Positions 17,798 to 19,350 of a stretch of DNA of 64,000 nucleotides are shown in pieces. Each line of letters opens with the position of its first letter. The stretch's first letter is position 1. A program made the translations under genes and the position numbers. The notes beneath the pieces were generated by a model. That model was not told the origin of the DNA, searched no databases, and worked only from the letters and a program-made list of their open reading frames with translations. Source of the stretch: Micromonospora zamorensis (GTDB lineage: Bacteria > Actinomycetota > Actinomycetes > Mycobacteriales > Micromonosporaceae); NCBI RefSeq assembly GCF_900090275.1, contig NZ_LT607755.1, forward strand, positions 2,418,001 to 2,482,000, given 5' to 3'.

Positions 17798-17823
17798 GGC
17801 AAGGAGCTCATGCGCTCCTTGCC
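17798..17823 (+). terminator. Hairpin terminator between phosphotransferase gene and rox
   Basis: Perfect 10-bp arms GGCAAGGAGC (17798-17807) and GCTCCTTGCC (17814-17823) around a 6-base loop. It lies about 40 bases past the phosphotransferase stop and just before the RAE, so it insulates rox transcription. Confidence 0.7.
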
Positions 17824-17846
17824 ACCTCCAACATATATCGCACCCG

Positions 17847-17865
17847 GGGCCTTGTGGCAAGACCC
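17847..17865 (+). promoter_or_regulatory. Rifamycin-associated element (RAE) upstream of rox
   Basis: GGGCCTTGTGGCAAGACCC at 17847-17865 matches the reverse complement of the published 19-bp RAE (GGGGCTTGCNNCAAGGCCC) at every defined position but one. It is embedded in a wider CCCGGG-flanked palindrome. RAEs drive rifamycin-inducible genes such as rph, rox and helR in actinomycetes. It lies 57 bases before the rox start. Confidence 0.85.
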
Positions 17866-17922
17866 GGGTCGTGCCGCAGAATCACCACCCTGAGCCCAAA
17901 GCTGGGAAAATCGGGGGATTTG

Positions 17923-19350
17923 ATGATCGATGTCATCATTGCCGGCGGCGGGCCGACCGGCCTGATGCTGGCCAGCGAGTTGCGACTGCACGGGGTGCAC
18001 GTGCTAGTGGTGGAGAGGGACACCGAGCCGACCCCGTACGTCCGTGCGCTCGGGCTGCACGCGCGCAGCATCGAGGTGATGGATCAGCGTGGCCTGTTGG
18101 AGCGGTTCCTCGCGCTCGGCCAGCAGCACCCGGTCGGTGGCTTCTTCGCCGCCATTCCCAAGCCGTCGCCGAGCGGGCTGGACACCGCCCATCCGTACGT
18201 CCTCGGCATCCCGCAGACCACGACGGACCGCCTGCTGGCTGAGCACGCCGCCGACGTCGGCGTGGAGATCCGGCGCGGCTGCGAACTGGTCGGGCTCAGC
18301 CAGGACGACGACGGGGTGACAGTGCGGTTGGCCGACGGCGGGCAGCTGCGGTCGCGCTATCTCGTCGGCTGCGACGGTGGCCGCAGCACCGTGCGCAAAC
18401 TGCTCGGCGTCGGCTTTCCCGGTGAGCCCAGCAGGGTCGAGTCCCTGTTGGGCGAGATGGAGGTGGGCGTAGCACCGGAGACGGTGGCCGAGGTGGTGGC
18501 CGAGGTGCGCACGACGCACCTGCGGTTCGGCCTCGGGCCGCTGGGCGACGGGGTGTACCGCGTCCTGGTTCCCGCCGAGGGGGTGGTCGAGGATCGCTCG
18601 GTCCCGCCGACCATCGAGGAGTTCAAGCGACAACTGCTGGCGTACGCGGGCACCGACTTCGGCGTGCACTCACCGCGCTGGCTCTCCCGCTTCGGCGACG
18701 CCACTCGGCTGGCCGAGCGCTACCGGACCGGCCGGGTGCTGCTGGCCGGCGACGCGGCGCACATCCACCCGCCAACCGGCGGGCAGGGGCTCAACCTCGG
18801 CATCCAGGACGCGTTCAACCTCGGGTGGAAACTGGCCGCCGCCGTCAACGGCTGGGCGCCGGACGGGCTGCTGGACAGTTACCACACCGAACGGCACCCG
18901 GTGGCCGCCGACGTCCTGAACAACACCCGCGCGCAGATGCTGCTGCTGTCGCCCGAGCCGGGACCCCGGTCGGTGCGTCAACTGTTGTCGGAGCTGTTGG
19001 ACTTCGAGGACGTCAACCGGTACCTGATCGAGAAGGTCACCGCGATCGGGGTCCGCTACGACTTCGGCGAGGGCCACGAGATGCTCGGCCGCCACCTGCG
19101 CGACGTACGGCTCAAGCAGGGACGCCTCTACGAGCTGATGCGCGGGGGCCGCGGACTGCTGCTCGACCAGACCGGCCGGCTCTCCGTCGCCGGGTGGGCG
19201 GACCGGGTCGACCACGTCGTCGACGTCAGCGAGGAACTGGACGTGCCCGCCGTGCTCCTGCGGCCAGACGGCCACGTGGCGTGGGTGGGCGACGACCAGA
19301 CGGAGCTGCTCGGCCAGCTGCCCAGATGGTTCGGTGCAGCCGCCGGCTGA
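17923..19350 (+). CDS. rox: Rifamycin monooxygenase Rox (FAD-dependent)
   Basis: Group A flavin monooxygenase that hydroxylates the rifamycin naphthyl core and linearises it, giving resistance. The 475-aa product has all three FAD motifs: [15 protein letters not shown] (9-23), the DG motif [14 protein letters not shown] (about 149) and [16 protein letters not shown] (about 276). [17 protein letters not shown] and [15 protein letters not shown] are stretches I associate with Streptomyces Rox. ATG 17923 follows GGGGGA. The RAE upstream strongly supports the specific assignment over a generic PHBH-type enzyme. Confidence 0.88.

Follow-up and report, generated by a model that had tools for sequence, protein, structure and literature searches.

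Two questions are raised by a monooxygenase gene in the window, the 64,000-nucleotide stretch of Micromonospora zamorensis DNA that was analysed here: whether the gene belongs to the RAE-controlled rifamycin defence, and what role is played by the perfect hairpin that lies upstream of its RAE. The initial annotation had answered the second question by proposing that the hairpin cuts off transcription arriving from upstream. We investigated the gene and its product, the remainder of the genome, and the corresponding upstream regions in a sample of related bacteria.

The rox gene, its RAE and the probable rifamycin defence of the genome

The gene extends over 17923..19350 on the plus strand, starts at ATG 17923 (with TTG at 17920 as a possible alternative start), and encodes a product of 475 aa. 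That this product matches Rox along its length, as first proposed, was borne out by profile comparison: the NCBIfam rif_monoox equivalog NF033145.1 was matched with 924.6 bits (cut-off 800) over residues 2-473. Among solved structures the best matches were PDB 5vqb (786 bits over residues 1-474) and 5kow (772 bits), which we take to be Rox of Streptomyces venezuelae and Rox/RIFMO of Nocardia farcinica, respectively. The next-best structure was a polyketide oxygenase at 379 bits, and PHBH-type enzymes reached at most about 52 bits. Since the product thus groups with the characterised Rox/RIFMO structures and away from PHBH-type and polyketide hydroxylases, the latter assignments were rejected. 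The full-length match to the family identifies the product, at the level of sequence, as a Rox of the same enzyme family as the S. venezuelae and N. farcinica proteins. Rox enzymes by definition oxidise and linearise rifamycins, and this activity is predicted for the product here. The named rox loci closest to it include those of M. noduli (91%), M. alfalfae (90%) and M. parva (89%). Two neighbouring genes provide context outside the RAE-rox unit. Upstream, 16702..17760 (plus strand) encodes a phosphotransferase that only weakly resembles APH(9) (NF000052.4, 89.6 bits, far below the cut-off of 680), and downstream, 19355..20017 (minus strand, convergent to rox) encodes a GGDEF protein (TIGR00254, 111.8 bits, cut-off 37.4).

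The RAE, GGGCCTTGTGGCAAGACCC, occupies 17847..17865 on the plus strand with its dyad centre at 17856. Pattern search and comparison confirmed both its placement 57 bases before the rox ATG and its deviation from the expected site at a single defined base, as initially described. Specifically, it departs from the rox-wide consensus GGGNCTTGCGGCAAGNCCC by a T at index 8, where C has a frequency of 0.96 (n=76). When the 64 kb were searched for fully palindromic 19-mers with up to 3 mismatches, the rox RAE was the single match, against 0.06 expected and a match in 6 of 100 shuffled sequences. Sites scoring at least 14 of the 15 defined bases were present within 300 bases upstream in 75 of 80 named rox loci; these 75 together with the window make up the 76 aligned rox modules used below, while L030, L042, L043, L054 and L062 were left out on account of RAE scores below 14/15. 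An RAE upstream of rox is likewise described for S. venezuelae (PMC10719064 and PMC7283461). The rox gene with its RAE in Micromonospora is a real and expected member of a known regulon.

We then considered the genome as a whole, a single 7.10-Mb contig. The exact pattern GGNNCTTGNNGCAAGNNCC occurred at three sites, whereas the reversed control gave 0. Besides the rox site, one exact RAE lies before rph (product at 1622 bits to NF041857.1, cut-off 999) and one before helR (1250 bits to NF041254.1, cut-off 750), so that rox is one of three RAE genes; the initial annotation had suggested looking for exactly these companions. In this respect the genome differs from the S. venezuelae case, which besides belonging to another genus concerns RAE-rox. 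A looser search with GGGNCTTGNNGCAAGNCCC at up to 2 mismatches gave 7 forward and 6 reverse sites compared with 24 and 27 in the reversed control, and since it performed no better than the control only the three exact RAEs were counted. A search of the genome for Arr returned no match. AHBA synthase is a hallmark of rifamycin producers, and none was seen in the genome by a DegT-family search that gave seven matches, two of them full-length. For both full-length proteins other aminotransferases outranked the AHBA synthase 1b9h (305.6 versus 164.6 bits, and 262.3 versus 130.5 bits), and thus no ansamycin starter pathway was evident, which extends to the entire genome the earlier statement that no rifamycin cluster is visible. 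In RpoB the residues D516, H526 and S531 (E. coli numbering), taken here as the significant positions, are unaltered, and position 527 is R. Taken with the three RAE genes, these observations make the strain look, from its sequence, like a non-producer with a drug-sensitive-looking polymerase that relies on rox, rph and helR as its rifamycin defence.

Promoter-like elements on both sides of the RAE

For comparison, RAE modules were collected from relatives. The exact RAE pattern was found in 107 of 121 genus genomes drawn, although the reversed control also matched in a minority, and the RAE combined with a downstream block GCANAAT at fixed spacing was found in 128 of 394 class genomes, with 0 in the control columns shown. 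We took 30 loci from the genus search, 30 from the class search and 60 more that were picked by hand, and kept 118 of these 120; L122 was dropped for too little upstream sequence and L087 because its upstream stretch was the same as that of an earlier module. The kept loci head rox, helR or rph in 88 of 118 cases (22, 45 and 21, respectively), with weaker matches in 10 and unclassified genes in 20. One family within the same order, here called f2 and by its gene content probably Mycobacteriaceae, is represented by 19 fetched loci, of which 17 entered the offset-21 and permutation analyses (L163 and L164 were left out). Module positions are counted with the RAE start as 0.

In the 76 aligned rox modules, conservation around the RAE spans about -59 to +63. 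On the downstream side a sense -10 element of the form [TC]AnnnT, CAGAAT at 17877..17882 (plus strand), begins 21 bases from the RAE centre. Of the rox modules 73 of 76 have this element at this offset, as do 28 of the 29 genus modules; the class set had itself been chosen by the sense -10. The downstream block, GCAnAAT at 29-35, agrees with the published promoter 2, in which the RAE overlaps the -35: according to a review of mycobacterial helD, the P1 start lies upstream of the RAE, the -35 of P2 is covered by it, and an unknown activator is put forward for the RAE (PMC10719064).

On the upstream side, A-17, T-13 and A-12 were nearly invariant in the rox modules. They belong to a putative -10 element for antisense transcription (minus strand, 17830..17835, TATGTT), which mirrors the sense -10 about the RAE centre and begins at the same offset of 21. 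Minus-strand TAnnnT at -12..-17 was found in 193 of 196 modules, and by set at offset 21 in 75/76 rox, 29/29 genus and 87/89 class modules. Moreover, a C at -24, which on the minus strand is a G at the expected antisense start 7 bases beyond the -10, was present in 194 of 196 modules; the predicted start in the window is 17823, the first minus-strand base of the hairpin. All 19 f2 loci keep both the minus-strand TAnnnT and C-24, with A-16 and A-10 each at 7/19 and T-11 at 12/19; in the ten unclassified f2 loci the last three letters fall to 0/10, 0/10 and 3/10. Several of these ten loci are Arr-like by their first residues, and one of them was profile-scanned. Since the sense and antisense -10 elements share just the two letters typical of -10 elements and form no longer palindrome, an extended operator is a poor explanation for the symmetry.

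The same block can also be read in the sense direction. One base earlier on the plus strand, [CT]AnnnT at -18..-13 occurs in 190 of 196 modules, so that A-17 and T-13 are compatible as well with a -10 in the sense direction, which would give a start near -5; A is found at -5 in 159 of 196 modules and the full plus-strand TAnnnT in 44 of 196. On these sequence grounds the upstream block may instead hold a sense promoter, which could be the published P1, and this is a real alternative. Among the near-invariant -10 letters A-12 alone is special to the antisense reading, and what favours the antisense direction is confined to A-12, C-24 and the hairpin. For both directions the spacing to a -35 would be 19 bases, a long distance. 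Scanning both strands of 17650-18000 for the sigma-70 consensus gave no promoter-like site; the argument for a two-way promoter accordingly rests on conservation and not on consensus strength.

These data bear directly on the alternative that fares best, namely that this is an ordinary RAE-controlled rox in which a rifamycin-responsive regulator binds the palindrome, the flanking elements represent P1 and P2, both in the sense direction, and the hairpin is a terminator that either acts both ways or has no link to the RAE unit. We regard this as possible, if on the unlikely side. It accords with the P1/P2 layout and the suggested activator of mycobacterial helD (PMC10719064), and with the plus-strand counts just given. 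However, the full TAnnnT occurs on the minus strand in 193 of 196 modules, at the mirror position to P2, and P1 would be left with no conserved -35, the loop region at -40..-34 being among the least conserved of the module. The hairpin itself provides further evidence on this point.

The hairpin and its polarity

The hairpin at 17798..17823 consists of a perfect 10-bp stem with 7 GC pairs and a 6-base loop, with a folding energy of -20.5 kcal/mol as plus-strand RNA. A terminator scan of 17650-18000 identified this hairpin as the sole terminator-like site, and placed it on the minus strand, where the G+C-rich stem is directly followed by TTTGTTGTTT (17788..17797, minus strand), as expected of an intrinsic terminator. 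On the plus strand no T-run follows the stem, and no terminator was found in 17650-18000. With its T-tract on the minus strand the hairpin should stop antisense transcription rather than transcription from upstream, and we annotate it as the putative intrinsic terminator of an antisense transcript.

In the sample, hairpins were called at a score of 18 or more at -56..-19 in 196 distinct modules. A hairpin was found in 120 of these: 70/98 rox, 15/22 rph, 28/46 helR and 7/30 of the rest. When arms were swapped between modules the share was 24%, and with shuffled letters 2.6%; in 200 whole permutations the mean was 0.248 and the maximum 0.311, compared with 0.612 observed. Even where the 3' arm was at least 2 letters off the commonest, the hairpin was kept in 66 of 132 modules; among 1320 swaps the share was 12.7%. 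The register to the RAE is mostly fixed, with -24 as the end of the arms in 72 of 120 hairpin modules. The polarity seen in the window was also general. Beyond the 5' arm, the nine adjoining plus-strand bases include at least 5 A in 85 of 120 hairpin modules; beyond the 3' arm, the corresponding nine include at least 5 T in 2 of 120. A test for strand bias in wobble pairs (A.C 36, G.T 5) gave a signal above base composition (p=0.0003) but not above the swapped control (p=0.19). An Rfam match to the snoRNA sR44 in 17600-18000 was discarded at 13.4 bits, the gathering score being 45.

We also examined whether the hairpin follows the direction of the upstream gene, using rough gene calls by GC3 frame bias for 123 of the 196 modules (the 60 hand-picked loci were too short upstream). 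It was present in 42 of 68 modules with a tandem and 41 of 55 with a divergent upstream gene (p=0.18); thus neither protection of tandem upstream genes by the terminator nor its loss when the upstream gene is divergent was seen. That the hairpin mostly keeps its position relative to the RAE, carries its T-tract on the minus strand and is found irrespective of upstream-gene direction argues against the unrelated or bidirectional terminator of the ordinary RAE-controlled rox.

The same observations bear on the initial proposal that the hairpin insulates rox from upstream read-through, acting as a terminator without a plus-strand T-run. The perfect hairpin was correctly described, its stem is stable as plus-strand RNA, and it does come after a tandem gene, which ends at 17760. 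Nevertheless, insulation appears very improbable, since the scan places the terminator on the minus strand and none on the plus, the T-tract polarity is 85/120 against 2/120, and the hairpin is no rarer where the upstream gene is divergent; the part of the claim that concerned cutting off upstream transcription was therefore given up. It is hardly credible, finally, that the dyad binds a second regulator as its operator while the A-tract acts on a sense promoter as an UP element. The dyad does lie immediately upstream of the TATA-like block, and the A-tract stands at a distance that would be appropriate for an UP element if transcription started at -5. However, the stem letters differ between RAE genes within a genome with pairing kept (8 of 9 genomes shown, judged by eye; in the ninth the two RAE genes, L192 and L193, share their stem letters), which speaks against a common operator. 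The A-tract also shifts together with the stem, which is required of a terminator tail, although the unconstrained correlation, at 0.19, is weak.

The hairpin is a common but non-universal part of the RAE unit. At the score threshold 76 of 196 modules have none, f2 has it in 2 of 19 loci, and the genome's own helR module retains the RAE and the downstream -10 block with the hairpin reduced to a 4-bp stem remnant.

A two-way promoter model and its relation to known systems

What the comparison shows, then, are conserved symmetric elements about the RAE, a hairpin with compensating changes, and its minus-strand polarity. The mirror -10 elements together with this polarity suggest that a two-way promoter is centred on the RAE; as a conserved architecture, such a promoter with an antisense terminator is well supported by the sequence comparison. 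For the complete reading, in which Rox is part of a three-gene RAE defence and the RAE centres a two-way promoter whose antisense unit terminates its own transcript and holds the sense promoter low, we would put the probability at roughly 60%. The RAE palindrome would then serve as, or overlap, the -35 region of the sense and antisense promoters alike. Antisense RNA would start at about 17823 and stop some 35 bases later at the hairpin and T-tract (17788-17797). Both promoters would fire, with RNA polymerase occupying one at a time to the exclusion of the other, and the antisense unit would keep the sense promoter low without rifamycin. Rifamycin, acting through arrested polymerase or an RAE-binding factor, could tip this balance and so induce rox.

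Steric exclusion alone fails to explain induction, because a polymerase arrested on the antisense promoter would block the sense promoter too. A stronger version, in which the RAE is a shared -35 core and the antisense unit of about 35 nt is itself the rifamycin sensor, such that drug-arrested polymerase there ends the interference, is in our view doubtful. If true, it would be an actinobacterial counterpart, in another layout, of the convergent-promoter alarm of B. subtilis, and a dedicated rifamycin-binding regulator would be unneeded. A regulator may also bind the RAE, and the upstream block may hold a sense promoter.

Papers from 2022 and 2026 (PMC10719064; PMC12802891) regard both the way in which the RAE senses rifamycin and its binding partner as unknown, and the authors of the B. 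subtilis helD alarm state in the latter that the precise RAE mechanism remains to be elucidated. In the literature searched, as far as its text was accessible, there was no description of an RAE antisense unit or two-way promoter, and the accessible descriptions of RAE-rox in S. venezuelae (PMC10719064, PMC7283461) make no mention of an antisense -10 or a terminator. A two-way RAE promoter could help explain rifamycin sensing in these bacteria, and a real antisense unit would mean that efforts to find a dedicated regulator are perhaps aimed in the wrong direction.

Two known systems resemble the proposed arrangement in part. The first is helD of B. subtilis, where rifampicin can be sensed through an antisense promoter (PMC12802891). 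The helD/pps alarm there is similar in pairing a sense resistance promoter with an antisense promoter that possibly holds it low, but its promoters are convergent, lie 39 bp apart and have no RAE, and shortening their distance by 17 bp abolished induction (PMC12802891). Here the putative promoters would instead point away from each other on either side of the RAE, and the antisense start would coincide with a terminator; hence the physics of the B. subtilis system is not simply transferable. The second resemblance is to the bidirectional promoters of E. coli, at which polymerase binds pseudo-symmetric DNA in either direction and one direction excludes the other (PMC12825309). In our case a 19-bp palindrome forms the mirror axis. 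Each -10 element begins 21 bases from the centre of this palindrome, and a conserved terminator closes one of the two arms.

Other RAE loci in the sample appear to head genes beyond rox, helR and rph. Ten proteins from such loci were profile-scanned, their genes having been chosen by frame bias, so that a few may not be the RAE-controlled gene. Five fit best an Rgt glycosyltransferase model, all below the cut-off of 800 and one of them a fragment; one Arr and one DrrA-type ABC ATPase were above cut-off; the rest were an MFS efflux-like protein, a Rox-related monooxygenase closer to NCBIfam PRK06834, and one protein without a match. The DrrA-type ATPase follows an RAE module with a clear hairpin (L176, genome G174; 8 pairs, score 21), and is possibly a further member of the regulon, provided that the chosen frame is the controlled gene. 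In the genus genome G004, the RAE module of L086, with a hairpin under threshold, lies about 270 bases before the MFS drug-efflux-like gene. The RAE-headed monooxygenases of L147, L150, L157 and L175 are 44-46% identical to M. zamorensis Rox and may represent a second RAE-controlled flavin enzyme; for that of L147, the one scanned of the four, PRK06834 was a better fit than Rox.
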